Program-made: the position numbers and the translations under genes
In this document: positions 15,248 to 24,284 of the stretch, piece after piece
How the letters are laid out: the number at the start of each line of letters is the position of its first letter
How positions within the stretch are numbered: position 1 is the first letter of the stretch
Notes under the pieces: generated by a model
The model's input: only the letters and a program-made list of their open reading frames with translations
Databases searched by the model: none
What the model was told of the DNA's origin: nothing
DNA from: Methanoregula formicica SMSP
Lineage (GTDB): Archaea; Halobacteriota; Methanomicrobia; Methanomicrobiales; Methanospirillaceae
Direction: 5' to 3'
Assembly (NCBI RefSeq): GCF_000327485.1
Contig: NC_019943.1
Location: forward strand, 2,108,001 to 2,172,000
Length of the DNA: 64,000 nt

Positions 15248-17713
15248 ATGGCCTCGCAGTCCACCGGCAGCTGCCTTGACGCGGCCTGCACGCTCGACTC
15301 CTATTCCCGCGACATCCGGATCGCGATCAACCAGGTGGAGTACAGCAACTCACCGGGCGGGCCCGTCATCCACATCTTCGGAAGGGACACACGCGGAAAG
15401 GCTGTCCGGCTGGATGTGACGGGCTTCAGGCCCTACTTCTATGTTCCGGCCGACCAGGCCGAAAGCACACCAATCCCCCCGCAGGCAACGCTCGAGACTG
15501 GGAACACCTACCGCTCGATCCGCGGCGAGCAGCTCCGGAGACTCTTCACCCAGCGGCCCACGGATGTACGGGATGTCCGCGAGCGGTACCGCCACTTCGA
15601 GGCAGACATCCCGTTTGCCACCCGGTTCATGATCGACACCGGCCTGACCGGAGGCGTTGCAGCACCGAAAGAGAACATCGACTGGCAGGAAATAACGCCG
15701 ATCGCTATCGATGCCCCGGCCCGGACCTGCATCATCGATATCGAGTGCGAGGACGAGCGGGGATTCCCCGATCCCCAGCGGGATGCCATCATCTGCATCA
15801 CCTGCTATGACTCGTTCGACGAGGACTACACCACGTTCCTCTTCTCCGGAAGCCAGATTCCGGCCGCCGTTGCCGTGAAGGTGAAGGAAGGCGGCCTTGA
15901 TAATGGGTGTTTCCGCGAGGGCACCCATACGATCTGCTCGTATGCCGATGAACCCGCGATGCTCCGGGCATTCACGGCATACATCATTGCCCGCGACCCG
16001 GACATCCTCTCGGGCTGGAACTTCGTGGACTTCGACATGCCCTACATCACCGGCAGGATGGAACGGCTGGGGCTGAAATCCGATTCGCTTGCCCGCATCC
16101 CGGGTATGACCGAAAGAAATGCCCTCCGCGGCCGGGCGCTCTTCGACCTCCTTACCGCGTACAAGAAGATGCACTCCACGCTGAAGGAGTCCTACCGCCT
16201 CGACGCCATTGCAATGGATGAACTCGGGCAGCAGAAGGTCCGGTACACGGGCACGATTTCCGATCTCTGGAAAAAGGAGCCGGCGCTCCTTGTCGAGTAC
16301 AACTTCAAGGACGTGGAGCTCTGCGTGGGGATCAACAAAAAGGACAACATCATCGGGTTCTACCGCGAGATCGCCCGGTATGTGGGCTGCCCGCTTGACA
16401 AGACCCTGAACTCGTCAAGCGTGATTGACGTGTACGTGCTCAGGAAAGCGTTCGGGAACTACGTGCTGCCCTCCAAGGGATTTGCCAATGCGGAAGAGTT
16501 CGAGGGAGCAACGGTCTTCGAGCCGAGCAAAGGCGTGCGGGAGAACGTGGTGGTACTCGACCTGAAATCGCTCTATCCGATGGCAATGATGACCATCAAT
16601 GCTTCGATGGAGACAAAAGACCCTGCCGGCGAACTCCGGGCACCCAACGGGATCCGGTTCCGGAAACAGCCGAACGGGCTGACACGGAGCATCATCGCGG
16701 ACCTGCTCAAGGAGCGGGACGAGAAGAAGCGGTTGCGCAACACGTTCGCCTTCGGCTCTCCCGAGTACATTATGTACGACATGCAGCAGAACGTGCTGAA
16801 AGTGATCATGAACACCTATTACGGCGTCTCGGGATACACCCGGTTCCGGCTCTTCGACCGGGAGATCGGGGCGGCTGTCACCTCCGTGGGCCGTGCGATC
16901 ATCGAGCACACGCGGCGCGAGATCGAGAAGATGGGCTATACGGTCATCTACGGCGACACGGACTCCTGCATGATCCAGCTCCCGCCGCTCGACCGGGAGA
17001 AGACGATCGAGATTGCACGTAGCATTGAAAAACAGCTCAACGCGAGTTACCCGGTCTTTGCAAAAACCGAACTGAACGCCGATGTCAGTTTCTTTTCCAT
17101 CAAATTCGAGAAGATCTATGCCCGCTTCTTCCAGGCAGGCAAGAAGAAGCGCTACGCAGGATCGCTTGTCTGGAAAGAGGGAAAGGACGTACAGGAAACG
17201 GACATTGTCGGCTTCGAGATCAAGCGAAGCGACACACCGCAGATAACAAAGCATGTGCAAAAAACCGTGATGGAACTCATCCTGGACGGCAAGGGGCTCG
17301 ACGAGGTCAAGGCATTCCTTGGCGAGGTGATCAAAAAATACCGGGCCGGGAAATACACGCTGGATGAGATCGGGATCCCCGGCGGGATCGGGAAGAGCCT
17401 CGACGATTACGAGACGGACGATGCACAGGTGCGGGGCGCAAAGTATGCCAACCAGTACCTGCACACGGAGTTCGGGAAGGGCAGCAAGCCCAAGAGGATT
17501 TACATCAAGACGGTAACCGCCAAATATCCCAAGACGGACGTGCTCTGCTTCGAGTACGCCGACCAGGTGCCTCCCGAGTTCGTGGTGGACCTCGAACTGA
17601 TGCTGGAGAAGACCATCAGACAACCGATCTCCCGGATCATCGAGGCGCTCGGCTGGAGCTGGGCGGATGTGGATCCGTCGCGGACTACGCTGGCGCAGTG
17701 GGGACTGGGGTAA
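15248..17713 (+). CDS. polB: DNA polymerase, family B
   Basis: An 821-residue replicative-type DNA polymerase from ATG 15248; an open frame runs upstream into mdh but the protein clearly starts here. The 3'-5' exonuclease Exo I motif is DIECEDERG, with later Exo motifs around NFVDFDMPY and YNFKDVELC. The polymerase has motif A DLKSLYPMAM, motif B KVIMNTYYGVSG and motif C YGDTDSCM. The C-terminus ends in LGWSWADVDPSRTTLAQWG. A diverged copy of the last 30 codons is found 2.5 kb downstream at 20129-20218. The gene is intact and its composition matches the GC-rich neighbours. Confidence 0.96.
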   Translation: MASQSTGSCLDAACTLDSYSRDIRIAINQVEYSNSPGGPVIHIFGRDTRGKAVRLDVTGFRPYFYVPADQAESTPIPPQATLETGNTYRSIRGEQLRRLFTQRPTDVRDVRERYRHFEADIPFATRFMIDTGLTGGVAAPKENIDWQEITPIAIDAPARTCIIDIECEDERGFPDPQRDAIICITCYDSFDEDYTTFLFSGSQIPAAVAVKVKEGGLDNGCFREGTHTICSYADEPAMLRAFTAYIIARDPDILSGWNFVDFDMPYITGRMERLGLKSDSLARIPGMTERNALRGRALFDLLTAYKKMHSTLKESYRLDAIAMDELGQQKVRYTGTISDLWKKEPALLVEYNFKDVELCVGINKKDNIIGFYREIARYVGCPLDKTLNSSSVIDVYVLRKAFGNYVLPSKGFANAEEFEGATVFEPSKGVRENVVVLDLKSLYPMAMMTINASMETKDPAGELRAPNGIRFRKQPNGLTRSIIADLLKERDEKKRLRNTFAFGSPEYIMYDMQQNVLKVIMNTYYGVSGYTRFRLFDREIGAAVTSVGRAIIEHTRREIEKMGYTVIYGDTDSCMIQLPPLDREKTIEIARSIEKQLNASYPVFAKTELNADVSFFSIKFEKIYARFFQAGKKKRYAGSLVWKEGKDVQETDIVGFEIKRSDTPQITKHVQKTVMELILDGKGLDEVKAFLGEVIKKYRAGKYTLDEIGIPGGIGKSLDDYETDDAQVRGAKYANQYLHTEFGKGSKPKRIYIKTVTAKYPKTDVLCFEYADQVPPEFVVDLELMLEKTIRQPISRIIEALGWSWADVDPSRTTLAQWGLG

Positions 17714-17938
17714 TAACACCCGTAAAAAAGACCCGTATGAGGTGAATTCACTTCACACAAGTACAATGAAAAGTTCGCTCTGCACCTGTGTTTGTCGTAC
17801 ACGTTTCTGTCGATACACCTCAAAATTTTCATGATGAAGCAATCACCTGCATAATTATTTTCAGAGCGATCCTTTTTCTGCAAGAATGGGCATAATTGCC
17901 GGTGTAATAATATTTGTTTCGTATGAATGCAAAATTTA

Positions 17939-17952
17939 ACATATAAATTATT
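17939..17952 (+). promoter_or_regulatory. Box A of the winged-helix regulator gene
   Basis: CATATAAATTATT lies about 22 bases before the ATG at 17968, in a locally AT-rich stretch. The spacing suits a leaderless archaeal transcript. Placement is by inspection only. Confidence 0.5.
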
Positions 17953-17967
17953 CAAATATAAGATCCA

Positions 17968-18495
17968 ATGAACTCAGAAAAAATAATCCTCACAAAAGAA
18001 CTGTTCCGGGTCCTTTCCTCCGATACTCGCATTACAATCCTGAAAAAACTTGCCCAACGAAGAAGGACGATCAGTGAATTATCACGCGAGTTAAAGATCG
18101 CTAAGTCAACAGTACACGAACATCTTGCTCTTATGACTGGTGCGGGGTTGATCACCCCCGTTCCCGATGAACATGAGTGGAAATATTATGAAATAACACA
18201 GAATGGTGCAAATTTGCTTGCACCGGAAAATTCAATTCCAATATCCATTCTTCTTACAACAACCGGATTCCTTTTTCTGGCGGGATCCATAACTGCATTT
18301 GTCGTTGCCTGGTTCTCGGTGAAGCAACCGCTCGTTTCAACGCCCATGCACGGTGGAGGTTATCCGGGTTATTTATACCCGGACCTCTTGTCAACCAGTA
18401 TTGGAATTCTTCTTCTCATAGCCGGGATTCTGGTTCTCATCCGGCTATTCAGGATCCGAACATCATTTAAGGCTGATTCCCTCCAGCCCTCCTGA
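17968..18495 (+). CDS. ArsR-like winged-helix regulator anchored by two C-terminal membrane helices
   Basis: A 175-residue protein. Residues 1-85 form a winged helix: LFRVLSSDTRITILKKLA, then the recognition region TISELSRELKIAKSTVHEHL and the wing KYYEITQNG. The C-terminal half has two hydrophobic helices (ILLTTTGFLFLAGSITAFVVAW, about 92-113, and STSIGILLLIAGILVLIRLF, about 148-167) joined by a short Pro/Gly-rich loop. A DNA-binding domain tethered to the membrane suggests a one-component regulator responding to an envelope signal. It is followed by a secreted C39-like protein and lies within the segment bracketed by the duplicated polB end, so the two may have arrived together. The target is unknown. 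Confidence 0.82.
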   Translation: MNSEKIILTKELFRVLSSDTRITILKKLAQRRRTISELSRELKIAKSTVHEHLALMTGAGLITPVPDEHEWKYYEITQNGANLLAPENSIPISILLTTTGFLFLAGSITAFVVAWFSVKQPLVSTPMHGGGYPGYLYPDLLSTSIGILLLIAGILVLIRLFRIRTSFKADSLQPS

Positions 18496-18931
18496 TCCGA
18501 CCATTGTAATTCCGTCCGCAGGCCTTGGATCAACCTTCACAGTTCTTGTGATATCTTTGTAATATAGTCCGGTAAATTCGTGAAGTTGAATTTCGGAGGG
18601 CACACACCGTTCCACTTTTTCATATTTCACTGTGTTCGGATAAAACCGAACGCTTTTCAGGGATTGAAATAGAATTGCAGAAAATTTTCTTGTACCCAGA
18701 AAGTGATGTTTTCACATTCTGCTGGAAGGGAATATTTCCGATAACGGATAAAGCAGTCCGTTTTCCGGAGAGGTTCCGGATTAAACATTGTCAGGCATGT
18801 TTCAGAAACCTTCACAACAAAGTCCTCCGACAAACGCGATACTACGATTTGCACCTCCCTTACCCCACACAGGAATACCGGGATTCTGATCCTGCCTAAG
18901 AAATCATATGAATGGAGAAGAACAAACAACC
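18496..18931. other. Intergenic stretch before the C39-like gene
   Basis: About 430 bases of moderately AT-rich sequence. Open frames of 60-180 codons exist on both strands but show no family features, have no ribosome binding site, and largely mirror one another. No RNA gene, repeat or strong hairpin was recognised. Confidence 0.45.
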
Positions 18932-20086
18932 ATGAAAAACTCTTTACGAAGTATTGTTTTACTATTGGTACTTCTGTCGTTTCTGACAGTACCAGTACTT
19001 GCAACAGATACCAATCTTGCAGTGCCGTATTACCAGCAGGAAACCGATTATTATTGCGGCTCTGCAGTTGCCCAGATGTGGATCGATTTCCACAATAGTT
19101 TCGTAAGTCAGAACACGTTGTATACATATATCCAAAACCATAACATCGAATCCGGATGGTCCACCGATCCTCAGGGACTCGAAGACGTTGTGGGAAACTA
19201 TGTGACAAATCTTATCACTGACGATCACAAGTGGAGTTCAGCTGACGCTGCAATAATGGGTCAGGCTGTGGATATTGTAAACCGGGGAATCCCTTCAGCC
19301 TCGTTGATTCATGAGGGGTATCATTGGAATGCAGTAAAAGGTGTGAGTTATACCCTGTACGGGGGCCAGATTTACCAGATCAACGGTGTCTGGGTGCAGG
19401 ATCCCTGGTACACAATGTCAGCTAATATATATTATGCTGTTAATTCATGGAAGAATGAATTTACTCAGGTCGATTTCCCTTCTTCAACTTGGGATAATTA
19501 CTGGGTAACGGTCCAGGGTTACTGGGGAAGCCGCGGCGGCGCTCCTGATTACGATAAGGAGATTGAAAACATCCGGTTAATGGATGAATCCGAAGTAAGT
19601 ACACCCATCACGGCAGAGATTGACATTGCCGGTTTCGCACGCGAACAAATGAATAAACAGAACCTGTTCCAGGAAGAGCTTAAGGGAAGTAGTCCGGGAA
19701 ATACCGTGCTCGTTCATTCCCTTAACAAAAATTATCCGGATTACTATCTGATTCCGTTTGAAAAGGATGGAGTTCCTGTGGTAGTTTCCAAGGTTGACCT
19801 TAAAGGAGATACAGCTGTGTTCAGCGCGGGTGCAGCACTGGAGAAGGGTGCCAGCAGTATAAAACCTGATCTGGATGAAGCGAGAAAAGCCTTGGAATAT
19901 GCGGGCTATGGAGACCTTGAGAATGCACGCCTTGTATGGAAACCCTGCGAACAGACAATGTCGGAGTTCATGCCGGTATGGGAGTTCTCGAACAATGCTA
20001 ATGAAATAAAATACGTTGGTTATAACCCGTTCGAACAGAAGGTTATGGTGTACGACAACCTTACTCCCAGTAAGATGAGAGGATAA
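18932..20086 (+). CDS. Secreted C39-like cysteine peptidase family protein
   Basis: A 384-residue protein from ATG 18932 (GGAGAAG eleven bases upstream; an ATG at 18908 would add eight residues). A signal peptide is clear: MKNSLRS, a hydrophobic core LLLVLLSFLTVPVL, then cleavage near ATA. The mature N-terminus has the C39-like fold signature: VPYYQQETDYYCGSAVAQMW with nucleophile candidate Cys42, and later HEGYHWNAVKGVSY and VQDPW with the histidine and the Asp-Pro-Trp of the family. The C-terminal part (about 220-384) is a separate domain with no recognised motif. It is probably a cell-surface peptidase or peptidase-like binder. It lies between the polB end and its copy. Confidence 0.75.
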   Translation: MKNSLRSIVLLLVLLSFLTVPVLATDTNLAVPYYQQETDYYCGSAVAQMWIDFHNSFVSQNTLYTYIQNHNIESGWSTDPQGLEDVVGNYVTNLITDDHKWSSADAAIMGQAVDIVNRGIPSASLIHEGYHWNAVKGVSYTLYGGQIYQINGVWVQDPWYTMSANIYYAVNSWKNEFTQVDFPSSTWDNYWVTVQGYWGSRGGAPDYDKEIENIRLMDESEVSTPITAEIDIAGFAREQMNKQNLFQEELKGSSPGNTVLVHSLNKNYPDYYLIPFEKDGVPVVVSKVDLKGDTAVFSAGAALEKGASSIKPDLDEARKALEYAGYGDLENARLVWKPCEQTMSEFMPVWEFSNNANEIKYVGYNPFEQKVMVYDNLTPSKMRG

Positions 20087-20128
20087 CTCTTCCTCGTACT
20101 TTTTTTGTGATTCCTTAACAACGACTAG

Positions 20129-20218
20129 CAGCCGAGATCCCGGATCATCGAATCGCTCGGCTGGAGCTGGGCCGATGTCGACCCCTCGCAGATGACACTG
20201 GCGCAGTGGGGGGGGTAG
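20129..20218 (+). pseudogene. Diverged duplicate of the polB 3' end
   Basis: Reading from 20129, 29 codons and a TAG stop repeat the end of polB (17621-17713). The core SRIIESLGWSWADVDPS matches SRIIEALGWSWADVDPS, followed by TLAQWG. By hand count about 15 of 90 aligned bases differ, mostly at third codon positions, plus one missing codon. Differences of that kind mean the copy diverged while coding, so it is not a recent duplication. There is no upstream coding part. It may be the original polB end displaced by an inserted element that carried its own replacement. Confidence 0.75.
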
Positions 20219-20272
20219 ATACGCATAATCAAATCGCAGTTGGAGATGAGATGTAAAAAACCGACTATATGA

Positions 20273-20409
20273 TGGGGGCTGATGCCCCCATACCCCCATT
20301 CATGATAGATGCCGCCGCCCCCGGCGGTGCGCCCCCGCGGCGGTTCAGTGACTAAACGCATAAAAAACCTCCTTGCCCCGCCGTGCCTCGGAGAGGCCCT
20401 GAGGCGGGG
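20273..20409. other. Hairpin-rich intergenic region
   Basis: Several stems lie in a row: TGGGGGC (20273-20279) pairs with GCCCCCA (20284-20290) across a TGAT loop. CCGCCG (20312-20317) pairs with CGGCGG (20322-20327). CCCCGCC (20376-20382) pairs with GGCGGGG (20403-20409) and encloses a nested GCCTC/GAGGC stem (20385-20389, 20393-20397). The block is followed by AT-rich sequence. It could be a structured RNA, a terminator region for the convergent transcripts, or recombination debris. No coding frame is credible. Confidence 0.45.
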
Positions 20410-20587
20410 AGCCCTCGTACCTATTCATCGTATTGTTGGGCATTAGAATTCTGAAATGTGTCAATTTATATCAAAATTATACAGTTGACATTATCTCATT
20501 ATATAGAAAAAAACAAGCCGGATTATTGTCAACGGGAATAACAAGTGGATGACTTTAATCCAAAATGCGGCGAGATTAAAATATTGT

Positions 20588-21586
20588 TTATTTTTTTGTA
20601 TCTAATGTGAAATACAACCTATATTTATATCCCATTTTTGGATTTAAAACCGTCCATTCTACTTTATAATCTGAATAAAACGGAATTATATGATTATCCT
20701 GTAGCTCTTTTTCGCTCAGAATCATCCTTTGATCTGATGAATCAGTAATTTGGAAACACAAACTCCCCATATGAGGTAGAGAATCAATTTCGGCACATTG
20801 TTTTATTCTATATTTTTCTCTTGCCTTACCCACCAACAATATTTGAAAACTGAGGCGTTCAGATACATGATTGATATCGACAGATACATAGTCTACTTTC
20901 CCACTAAGTGCATCATTGTACGCTGTGGTTCGATAACTTACTTCAAATTCTTTAGACTCGTTTGTTCGTAGATCTAACGGTACAAAAAATTTCAAAATAT
21001 ATACAGAATCATCATCCTTCTTTTTATGATTGTAATGCAATGGGGGCCTTGAAGTGAGCGTTCGGATCTCTGTTTCAGATAGTGGAGTCTCCTTTTTTAT
21101 TATTGGCTCGGCAATTGTTGGTTTAATTGGATCTGCCGGGGGTCTTCCATTAAATTTAAAATTAATATCTTCGTACGATGGAACCCACCGGTTAGATTTG
21201 ACCACAATCTGGTATTTCTGATATCGCTCTTCCATTTTATTTTGGATTTTCCTCGTTATTGATGACGTTGCAGTATTGTCGGTAATAGTTTCATCATCAA
21301 AAATAACTTCTCTAATCAAATATTGCAGTTTTAAGTCTTGAGCAATGTTTTCAAACAGACGAATCTTTTCATCATATTGGGATAAATCTTTGATATACAA
21401 TGTTGCTAAGATAATTACGCCAACCAAAAAAATACCAATTACATAATAAATTTTGAGGGTAACATCTGAAATTAGGGAGAATAGGTATACCATTATTGCG
21501 GTCAGAATCAGAATCATCATGAATCTGAAATAAGCGAAAAAATTTTCAATTAACCATTTCCAAGCTCTACGAATAAAAAGATTCAT
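20588..21586 (-). CDS. AT-rich membrane-anchored protein of unknown function
   Basis: A 332-residue protein from an ATG at 21586. After a basic start (MNLFIRRAWKWLIE) there are two membrane helices (FRFMMILILTAIMVYLFSLI, about 21-40, and YVIGIFLVGVIILATLYI, about 48-65). A long hydrophilic domain follows with charged, proline-containing segments (PPADPIKPTIAEP, HYNHKKKDDD) and a beta-rich C-terminal half. I do not recognise the family. Codon use is far more AT-rich than that of uvrB or polB and resembles the cas operon, which suggests recent transfer. It is alone on its strand, with no partner gene close by. Confidence 0.7.
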   Translation of the reverse strand: MNLFIRRAWKWLIENFFAYFRFMMILILTAIMVYLFSLISDVTLKIYYVIGIFLVGVIILATLYIKDLSQYDEKIRLFENIAQDLKLQYLIREVIFDDETITDNTATSSITRKIQNKMEERYQKYQIVVKSNRWVPSYEDINFKFNGRPPADPIKPTIAEPIIKKETPLSETEIRTLTSRPPLHYNHKKKDDDSVYILKFFVPLDLRTNESKEFEVSYRTTAYNDALSGKVDYVSVDINHVSERLSFQILLVGKAREKYRIKQCAEIDSLPHMGSLCFQITDSSDQRMILSEKELQDNHIIPFYSDYKVEWTVLNPKMGYKYRLYFTLDTKK

Positions 21587-21853
21587 ATTATAAAAAAGGA
21601 GAGAGATTTTAATAATATTTTCTATAAAATATCTTCTTCGCCAACTAGGATATCTTCTTCACCGACATACAATGCAACCGGGGTCTGCCTTGGACTCATC
21701 ATATCCCTAACTTATGAACTACTATTACATAAATATGTAGGTACCGACAGTAGACAGGGATTCCATTCCTCCAGAATTTTGACAGGTTGTGCTGATAAAA
21801 CCTGCTTCTCGCCAACTTGACAGCACCGTAAAAACAAACACTAAATTCGACAT

Positions 21854-23788
21854 TCACTTCCCGCTCAGCCGCTCGTTCAGCTTCTTGATCTGGTCCCGCA
21901 GCGCAATCGCCTTCTCGAAATCGAGACCCTCGGCAGCGTCCCGCATCTGCTTCTCGAGATCGATGATAACGTTCGGGATCTCGGTTTTCGGCACGTGCTT
22001 GGTGTCGGTGACCTCGACCTCTTTCTCCTTGATCGGCTTGATGATGGTCTGCGGGACGATGTTGTGCTTTTTGTTGAATGCAACCTGGAGCGTGCGCCGG
22101 CGTTTTGTCTCGGCAATCGCCCGCTTCATGGAATCGGTCATGTTGTCACCGTACAGAACAACCTTCGCGTTCACGTTCCGGGCTGCACGGCCGATGATCT
22201 GGATCAGGCTCCGGGCATCGCGGAGGAAACCCTCTTTGTCTGCGTCAAGAATCGCGATGAATCCGACCTCAGGGATATCAAGGCCCTCACGGAGCAGGTT
22301 GATCCCGACCAGGACATCGAACTTGCCGAGCCGGAGCTGCCGGATGATCTCGCTCCGCTCCAGCGTCTGGATCTCGGAGTGGAGGTAGCGTGTCCGGATC
22401 TTCCGATTCGAGAGGAACTCGGAGAGTTCCTCGGCGAGCTTCTTGGTCAGGGTGGTGATAAGGACGCGGTCGCCCCGCGCAATGGTCTTCTCCACTTCAC
22501 GGATCACGTCATCCGTCTGCCCCTCGATGGGACGGACCTCGACCTCCGGGTCAACAAGGCCGGTGGGCCGGATGATCTGCTCGACCGCTTTTCCGGATTT
22601 CTTCAGCTCATAATCGCCCGGTGTTGCCGAAACGAAAATCACCGAATTCATGTACTGCTCGAACTCGTGGAACTTCAGGGGCCGGTTGTCGTACGCGCTC
22701 GGGAGCCGGAACCCGTAGTCGATCAGCGCTTTCTTGCGCGAACGGTCACCGTTGTACATCCCGTGGAGCTGGGGGATCATCTGGTGGCTCTCATCGATGA
22801 TCATCAGGAAATCGTCCGGGAAATAGTCAAGCAGGCAGTAGGGTTTCTCGCCCGCGTTCCGGCCATCGAAATGCCGGGAATAGTTCTCGATGCCCTTGCA
22901 GGAACCGGTCTCCTCGATCATCTCGATATCGTACCGGGTCCGCTGTTCGAGCCGGTGGGCCTCGATCAGGCCGTGGATGGGGAGCACTTCGCCAAGCTCC
23001 TTCCGGATTGATGCAATGGCAGATTTCCGGGCGCTCTCGGGAGTAACGAAGTGGCGGGCAGGATAGACATAGAAATACTTCATCTCCTCGTTCACGGCAC
23101 CGGTGTTCTTGTCCACCTCGCGGATCCGCTCGATCTCGTTGCCGAAGAGCTCGATACGGATGATGTTGTTGAAGTACCCGGGGATGAAGTCGATGGTGTC
23201 GCCCTTGACCCGGAACCGGCCCGGCATCAGTTCAAGATCGTTTCGCTCGAAGAGGATGTCGATGAGCCGGCTCATGATGTCGTTCCGCGAGATCTTCTGG
23301 CCCACGGTCAGCTCAAAACCCATGTTCCGGAAGTTCTCCGGGTTGCCGAGGCCGTAGATGCAGGAGACGGATGCGACCACGATCACGTCCTTTCGGAACG
23401 ACAGCGACGCAGTTGCAGACAGCCGGAGCTGCTCGATCTTCGGGTTGATAGCAGAGTCTTTCTCGATGTACTGGTCCTTTGCCGGGATGTAGGACTCGGG
23501 CTGGTAGTAGTCGTAGTACGAGACAAAGTATTCCACACGGTTGTTCGGGAAGAAGTCGCAGAATTCAGAGTAGAGCTGGGCGGCAAGCGTCTTGTTGTGG
23601 GCGAGGACGAGCGTAGGCTTCTGCGCTGCCGCGATCACGTTTGCCATCGTGAAGGTCTTGCCGGAGCCGGTGACCCCGAGCAGGGTCTGGTACTGCTTTT
23701 GCTCTTCCAGTCCTTTTGTCAGCTCTTTGATAGCTTCCGGCTGCGAGCCGGCCGGGCCGAAACTGGAGACGAGCTGGAATTCTGTCAC
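21854..23788 (-). CDS. uvrB: Excinuclease ABC subunit UvrB
   Basis: A 644-residue UvrB from a GTG at 23788. The frame is open to 23968, but homology-type features begin at TEFQLVSSFGPAG and a box A lies 28 bases before the GTG. Motifs: Walker A GVTGSGKTFTMA, the beta-hairpin YYDYYQPESYIP that clamps damaged DNA, DESH in MIIDESHQMIP, the helicase C-terminal motifs GINLLREGLDIPEV and QIIGRAARN, and the C-terminal UVR domain (LEKQMRDAAEGLDFEKAIALRD) that binds UvrC. It is a bacterial-type nucleotide excision repair subunit, common in methanogens that acquired uvrABC. UvrA and UvrC are not in the window. Confidence 0.96.
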   Translation of the reverse strand: MTEFQLVSSFGPAGSQPEAIKELTKGLEEQKQYQTLLGVTGSGKTFTMANVIAAAQKPTLVLAHNKTLAAQLYSEFCDFFPNNRVEYFVSYYDYYQPESYIPAKDQYIEKDSAINPKIEQLRLSATASLSFRKDVIVVASVSCIYGLGNPENFRNMGFELTVGQKISRNDIMSRLIDILFERNDLELMPGRFRVKGDTIDFIPGYFNNIIRIELFGNEIERIREVDKNTGAVNEEMKYFYVYPARHFVTPESARKSAIASIRKELGEVLPIHGLIEAHRLEQRTRYDIEMIEETGSCKGIENYSRHFDGRNAGEKPYCLLDYFPDDFLMIIDESHQMIPQLHGMYNGDRSRKKALIDYGFRLPSAYDNRPLKFHEFEQYMNSVIFVSATPGDYELKKSGKAVEQIIRPTGLVDPEVEVRPIEGQTDDVIREVEKTIARGDRVLITTLTKKLAEELSEFLSNRKIRTRYLHSEIQTLERSEIIRQLRLGKFDVLVGINLLREGLDIPEVGFIAILDADKEGFLRDARSLIQIIGRAARNVNAKVVLYGDNMTDSMKRAIAETKRRRTLQVAFNKKHNIVPQTIIKPIKEKEVEVTDTKHVPKTEIPNVIIDLEKQMRDAAEGLDFEKAIALRDQIKKLNERLSGK

Positions 23789-23810
23789 GGTGCTTAGGAT
23801 CTTGGAACGG

Positions 23811-23820
23811 GATATTAAAA
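23811..23820 (-). promoter_or_regulatory. Box A of uvrB
   Basis: On the minus strand TTTTAATATC is centred about 28 bases upstream of the uvrB GTG at 23788. It supports that start over the longer frame and implies a leaderless message. Confidence 0.5.
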
Positions 23821-24284
23821 GGGATGGGGATGCGGCAGGAAAGTGATCCCGGGATCCCGTGGGGGCGGGGGAAGAAAGAGACTCTCCCCGGCATACTTCC
23901 CTACGACGGAGAATGTGAGGGAGCCGCAGGCCAAAAAATTCGGCAGTGGAAACGGTGCCAACACCCACGGAAATTTTTCCGATATTTGAGTATTTTCAGA
24001 ATCGGGGCGTTTTAATCAGGAATAAAACGTGCTTTTTAGCGGCCTGTAAAAATGCGCAAAAATCGCACAGCCAGCACTCCGATCCAGAGTCCGGAGGCCA
24101 ACCGGCGACCGCCATGAACGAAATTTTTACCCAGACCGAGGGTGAGAAAATCCGGAAAACAAATTTTTATAAAAAACTATGATTTTGCCATCCGGCACAT
24201 GCTATGAGACGCCGGGAGGCATCGTTGGTGCAGGATGTGCTTTTTCTGCTGCTGATATCAACCGGGGAGAGCCCTTCCCTGCCG
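23821..24284. other. Intergenic region between uvrB and the lipoprotein gene
   Basis: About 460 bases. The part near 23840-23960 is G-rich; the rest holds A/T runs (AAAATTTTT-like blocks near 24120-24180). Open frames of 60-110 codons on the plus strand have no recognisable features. Several short A/T tracts could serve as terminator or promoter sequence. Nothing definite was seen. Confidence 0.4.

Follow-up and report, generated by a model that had tools for sequence, protein, structure and literature searches.

Displaced ends of polB and other conserved genes beside variable cargo in Methanoregula formicica and related archaea

In the archaeon Methanoregula formicica SMSP (here G000; other G numbers denote genomes of relatives) the gene of the family B DNA polymerase, polB, is followed by a two-gene insert and then by a second, diverged copy of its own 3' end. 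We studied this locus within a stretch of 64,000 nucleotides (nt), below called the window, together with related genomes. Duplicated gene ends of this kind recur with unrelated cargo, one relative is free of the insert, polB itself has a hybrid end, and paired ends differ by an excess of synonymous changes. Judging from the sequences, it is fairly probable that genes are captured here by serial recombination that is anchored in the conserved 3' end of a core gene and closed by a non-homologous far junction.

The duplicated polB end and its insert

The last 93 nt of polB (17621-17713) are present again at 20129-20218 with 84% identity, and in a repeat search this is the top direct repeat of the window (17621-17703 against 20129-20211, 84% over 83 nt). 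When the whole genome was searched (2,820,858 base pairs (bp), one contig), the fragment matched only itself and polB (E 4e-20), with the next match at E 0.4. A profile of the polB C-terminus likewise finds only these two places. The duplication, which had been described in an earlier note on this DNA, is thus real: it is an 84% direct repeat without a third copy in the genome. An assembly artefact is an unlikely source of the repeat, since we take G000 to be a finished isolate genome.

Compared with polB, the fragment shows nine synonymous and four nonsynonymous differences and a 3-nt gap. That the two had diverged mainly at synonymous positions, as the note stated, is right, though it rests on 13 sites. 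The 9:4 count gives P 0.002 against a fully neutral copy, and P 0.033 against a stricter null, under which the two copies start out identical and constraint acts on the gene alone, the copy being neutral.

In agreement with the same note, the insert is less GC-rich (guanine plus cytosine) than polB, 38-49% against 54-64%, and both of its genes were recovered by Pfam, an ArsR-type winged-helix regulator and a C39-like protein. Since it encodes only these two, the remark that no integrase is present also applies: none is found by Pfam in the window insert, and none was recognised in the other annotated inserts described below. The regulator has hydrophobic segments in its second half, as judged by eye. 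In the C39-like protein Cys50 and His139 are invariant in an alignment across six homologues; its structure model was poor (mean predicted local distance difference test score 52.5) and gave no match in PDB at E<=0.001. The pair putatively consists of a regulator and a secreted cysteine-peptidase-like protein. It occurs away from polB and without polB ends in G059 and G211, and 17 of the 232 genomes searched encode C39 homologues; from both observations the pair has the look of a two-gene unit that is mobile.

Across 34 loci from Methanoregula and a sister genus, polB and uvrB lie side by side in convergent orientation, separated by 73 to 10554 bp (4140 bp in the window). When relatives are compared downstream of polB, as the earlier note had proposed, an insert-free site is found in G040, where polB is directly followed by uvrB. 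A strain whose polB ends exactly in the downstream version, also anticipated there, was not found among 36 polB ends from 35 relatives, the best reaching 85.6%. At its stop codon and in the bases that follow, the fragment is similar to the native polB end of G040, which is expected if it is the old end, left where it had been. The fragment is 85.6% identical to the G040 polB end and the present polB end 91.4%, so that the relative age of the two ends cannot be read from identity alone.

G061 contains the same two-gene unit (92% over 2.4 kb) without the polB fragment. At the expected place of the fragment there is a short decayed stretch that resembles its start, a weak trace (shuffle P 0.006). 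Because G061 keeps this stretch, it is more likely that the fragment was lost there than that it was gained late in the window. The insert itself is unevenly similar in the two genomes, with 81% identity at third positions in the regulator gene and 92% in the C39 gene.

Further, polB of G000 and G061 is hybrid with respect to its end: the last 266 nt are 97.4% identical, while the body is 85.6% identical. At third positions the difference is 94% for the end against 68% for the body (P 6e-9), and the best breakpoint falls near window position 17419, nt 2172 of polB (twice the log-likelihood difference, 2dLL, 47). No comparable jump in identity within polB is seen among 10 other relatives (smallest third-position P 0.03, unadjusted). 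The features of the locus are collected in Table 1.

Table 1. Features at the polB locus, in window coordinates
Feature	Position	Strand	Evidence
polB, gene of a family B DNA polymerase; in the proposed mechanism the core gene of the recipient, serving as anchor by homology	15248..17713	+	PF00136 E 3e-45, PF03104 E 2e-23
Probable replacement 3' end of polB, common to G061 (~97%)	17419..17713	+	Best single breakpoint, 2dLL 47
Portion of polB end repeated downstream	17621..17713	+	Direct repeat
Cargo gene 1, ArsR-type winged-helix regulator, 175 amino acids (aa)	17968..18495	+	PF01022 E 5e-12
Cargo gene 2, secreted C39-like protein, 392 aa	18908..20086	+	PF13529 E 2e-6, 28.8 bits (cut-off 24)
Probable displaced old polB 3' end, now outside any gene	20129..20218	+	84% to 17621-17703; 85.6% to G040 and G057 polB ends
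Presumed native flank of displaced end	20219..20262	+	Alignments; TAG stop and following bases like G040 polB end
GC-rich repeat	20263..20420		blastn; one copy in window
AT-rich open reading frame (ORF), 332 aa	20588..21586	-	No Pfam match; alignment to G061
uvrB, convergent neighbour of polB	21854..23968	-	PF12344, PF17757

The lowest GC (31-37%) lies outside the interval of the earlier note (17621-20218), at 20500-21750, over the 332-aa ORF. This ORF is missing between the C39 gene and uvrB in G061; it was gained or lost independently at this junction and lies outside the bounded unit. Parts of the GC-rich repeat are found in both orientations in the polB-uvrB gaps of G061, G040, G035, G038, G068 and G071. 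As an anchor of the native flank this repeat was given little weight, being present in several relatives and perhaps dispersed.

The same footprint at three genes

Of 232 genomes of the order, 216 have a match to the profile of the polB C-terminus, and seven of these have more than one. In four of the 216 (G000, G088, G089 and G108) the extra ends are found on the polB contig, downstream of the gene and in its orientation. The extra matches of G004, G012 and G015 are on separate contigs and were therefore left out of the array count. The fragment is nowhere else in the G000 genome and the same-contig copies of the relatives are located just downstream of polB, on the same strand, so the signs that the earlier note would have held against its idea were not seen.

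There is one extra end in G089, two in G088, and in G108, which belongs to another family of the order, two by profile or three by nucleotide search. The cargo differs: an MntA-like and a HepT-like protein (an MNT-HEPN pair) in G089, a DUF4258 protein and an MqsA-like zinc-finger protein (the latter below the Pfam cut-off) in G088, and a membrane protein and a secreted protein in G108, with a CAP12/TIR-domain protein beyond the last displaced end. Other inserts bounded by polB ends, for which the earlier note had suggested to look, do thus exist, and they have different cargo.

With a 30-aa query, no polymerase-end fragments were found on plasmids or phages, and a scan of viral contigs gave one 7-kb contig with a polB end 48% identical. 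One IMG/VR contig (L109 1-582) starts with a PolB C-terminus, followed by ORFs named by eye as HNH, PAPS-reductase-like and ParB-like; perhaps it is a provirus beside a host polB. It can also be observed that polB of G051, G055, G045 and G013 (L079, L080, L081, L082) has another C-terminus, of an NPNK type, than polB of related genomes.

Displaced ends are not confined to polB. For uvrB they are found in two of the 93 genomes with a uvrB match (G056 and G060), in G056 around an AglB-type protein. In G000 an aminotransferase gene (PF00155, at 106323-107750) is followed by two displaced ends, the first of which lies after a Fic protein. A family-wide search gave extra aminotransferase ends in 7 of 34 matching Methanoregula genomes, with up to three displaced ends per gene; the 20 genomes of other genera that matched have none. 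In the seven regions that were read, all copies are downstream and in the orientation of the gene. As a control, scans for truncated 3' ends looked for copies of the end of a gene downstream of that same gene, with tandem paralogues and repeat proteins excluded from the results. Among the 624 ORFs scanned in G000, each of at least 120 aa, polB and the aminotransferase at least are clear cases.

When the aminotransferase locus is compared between G000 and G061, the distal 10 kb are collinear at 97% and the gene-proximal unit differs, as would be expected if the array grows on the side next to the gene. One displaced aminotransferase end is succeeded by the 3' end of another gene plus 1.9 kb of the DNA downstream of it; the same piece is present at 1.159 Mb (92%), and the junction goes through a 4-nt microhomology, GAGC, as read by eye. 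Since this piece is joined with its gene end, cargo apparently moves together with the 3' end of the gene behind which it lay before.

Two further loci were observed in passing. In G108 the last 80 nt of a 453-aa gene (L245 15584-17030) occur again immediately behind the gene (82.5%), and no cargo separates the two. The 3' end of a gene for a 144-aa membrane protein (L304 19169-19603) resembles stretches that are dispersed over many Methanoregula genomes, full paralogues and fragments being taken together.

Origin of the displaced ends

If the ends arose by capture anchored in the core gene, the donor would be a related archaeon in which polB is followed by the two-gene unit. Homologous recombination inside polB would give the recipient the donor end and the genes downstream of it, while the far side would be joined non-homologously inside the polB end of the recipient. 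The old end would then stay behind as a decaying 90-nt fragment beside its native flank. Repeated events behind polB, uvrB and the aminotransferase in Methanomicrobiales, each displacing the previous gene end, could build arrays of cargo separated by displaced ends. Flanked on either side by gene-end homology, a finished unit could then be exchanged among strains through ordinary recombination. The recombination would be driven by the host (RadA-type), the far junction may be made by end-joining or microhomology, and the mechanism presupposes some route of DNA entry, which we likewise treat as conjecture.

To assess the origin of the gene ends, 20 displaced copies were compared codon by codon with the end of their gene. 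Synonymous changes exceed what a neutral copy would show in 13 of the 20 (P<0.05, per-copy values unadjusted) and what the stricter null allows in six. The pooled count is 252:216 (synonymous to nonsynonymous, P 1e-9 against the stricter null); it is not fully independent, because the clearest cases, the distal aminotransferase copies with 32:9 in G000 and 41:27 in G061, are one shared old copy in two genomes. At least some gene ends therefore derive from another allele than the displaced end. Most copies extend to the region of the stop codon and then have flanks of their own, some stops being changed; in the second aminotransferase copy of G066 the similarity ends before the stop. The starts are variable, about 40 to 450 nt before the stop.

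A number of observations weigh against anchored capture. The region is a mosaic throughout between G000 and G061, with further blocks at 97-99%, so that the breakpoint shows recombination inside polB and not the date of the insertion. Chimerism is weak for the aminotransferase (60 pairwise tests), and a far junction with microhomology is known from one case only, read by eye. Seven of the 20 copies (including G089, G108 copy 1, G088 copy 2 and G060) fit neutral decay, and there replacement is indistinguishable from plain duplication. Finally, four aminotransferase copies with unrelated upstream cargo start at codons 311-314, a possible sign of a preferred site, with weak clustering (P 0.02-0.13, and 0.002-0.02 once a 46-nt piece is added).

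The copies that fit neutral decay lead to one alternative, a duplicative insertion: foreign DNA would enter at a break with long staggered ends, or through template switching, and the gene end would be duplicated in the process, so that the copies are identical at birth. Several synonymous to nonsynonymous counts look as neutral as this predicts (7:23 in G089, 3:11 in G108 copy 1, 5:10 in G088 copy 2 and 5:9 in G060 uvrB). However, the distal aminotransferase counts and a further copy in G061 (17:7) exceed the stricter null, and the body and end of polB are discordant, which makes this alternative distinctly improbable. The array form with replacement ends is, on the other hand, what would be seen if core-gene 3' ends were attachment sites for a site-specific, integron-like insertion, with a recombinase acting in trans and cassettes made of cargo and a gene end. 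That the copies reach the stop codon, or nearly so, and that G000 and G061 differ in the gene-proximal part, agree with it as well, as do the aminotransferase starts, four at codons 311-314 and three at about 347-349, both near GTGCGTTCTATGC. Yet the host genes are several and different, the starts are spread and weakly clustered as described, and one of the three starts at 347-349 (G061) shares descent with the G000 copy. Within 50 kb of polB, on its contig, no tyrosine recombinase (PF00589) was matched in the 10 genomes searched; in G000 the nearest is more than 300 kb from polB, in a genome-wide search that did not include serine recombinases. We therefore hold such insertion to be unlikely, and it is similarly doubtful that an integron-like system without a linked integrase lets cassettes enter preferred points in the ends of polB, uvrB and the aminotransferase, restoring the host gene.

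The earlier note had read the locus as the remnant of an element that integrated into the 3' end of polB and brought a replacement end. The replacement is supported by the hybrid polB end shared by G000 and G061, by the insert-free G040 and by other cargo bounded by polB ends. The mobile element targeting polB was not supported by the comparison: no tyrosine recombinase was found within 50 kb of polB in the 10 genomes searched, the starts are variable, and the same footprint occurs at uvrB and the aminotransferase, for which reason a polB-specific element was rejected as a general account. Replacement and displacement of a gene end are what integration into gene 3' ends leaves behind; still, with no integrase recognised in any annotated insert, with the two-gene unit elsewhere without polB ends, and with unrelated genes bearing the same mark, a remnant of an integrase-bearing element is very improbable. 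Because this footprint is found at unrelated genes with unrelated cargo, no one mobile element accounts for it. It is hardly credible that these are unconnected local duplications and gene gains, noticed through the conservation of polB. The rarity of truncated end copies in the scan of G000 would allow it, but in several genomes it is the same three genes that are affected, and the copies invariably lie on the downstream side and on the strand of the gene, around different cargo.

Relation to known systems

If capture anchored in core-gene ends is the correct explanation, archaea can gather defence and surface genes without an integrase, by ordinary recombination at conserved gene ends. Each displaced end would be a fossil that tells the order, donor lineage and age of events, and the long-standing question of how element-free hotspots grow would become directly testable. 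Displaced ends would also provide a simple signature for genome scans. Among the papers listed in searches of a library of open-access articles, none describes displaced core-gene ends in methanogens.

Integrative elements of the tRNA type insert at gene 3' ends, restoring the end of the gene and displacing the old one. Here, in contrast, an integrase was not found in the annotated inserts and several genes are targets; the starts of the copies vary, with weak clustering in the aminotransferase. Duplicated gene 3' ends at two borders are present as in integrase-mediated genomic islands, but an integrase, which belongs to these, was found neither in the window insert nor, as a PF00589 match, within 300 kb of polB in G000. 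A casposon was also considered and rejected: the insert encodes neither Cas1 nor a PolB of its own, polB being a gene of the host. In the orphan modules of Rhs and contact-dependent inhibition systems a new 3' end is inserted and the old 3' end is orphaned downstream; there the 3' end is the variable toxin, while here it is conserved and the cargo varies.

The look of a cassette array is shared with archaeal integrons, as far as the parts of PMC9668308 used here describe them; IntI and attC were not identified, in a generic PF00589 search that was aimed at neither. A likeness also exists to the homology-facilitated illegitimate recombination proposed, in the sections considered of Kirchberger et al. 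(2017, PMC5361080), for displaced immunity-gene arrays of the type VI secretion system. Both have a one-sided conserved anchor and displaced 3' parts, with finished arrays moved by homologous recombination, which for our loci would be expected. At our loci the anchor is supported for polB and one 4-nt junction was read by eye. The arrays described there are effector and immunity modules with variable ends, whereas here conserved housekeeping ends adjoin unrelated cargo.

Element-free hotspots, according to the passages of Oliveira et al. (2017, PMC5635113) on which we draw, change by recombination at flanking core genes and are also reported beside recombination and repair genes, among which polB and uvrB would count. 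The likeness lies in the high gene turnover between conserved neighbours (the content between polB and uvrB is variable), the lack of an integrase and the recombination inside a flanking core gene, which is seen for polB between G000 and G061 and weakly for the aminotransferase. The hotspots in those passages are bacterial and change by double crossovers, while the loci studied here are archaeal and a homologous crossover on both sides is not what we find, since the presence of the displaced end at 20129-20218 means that the far side was joined without homology. Since one side is not homologous, old gene ends would stay in place as fossils.

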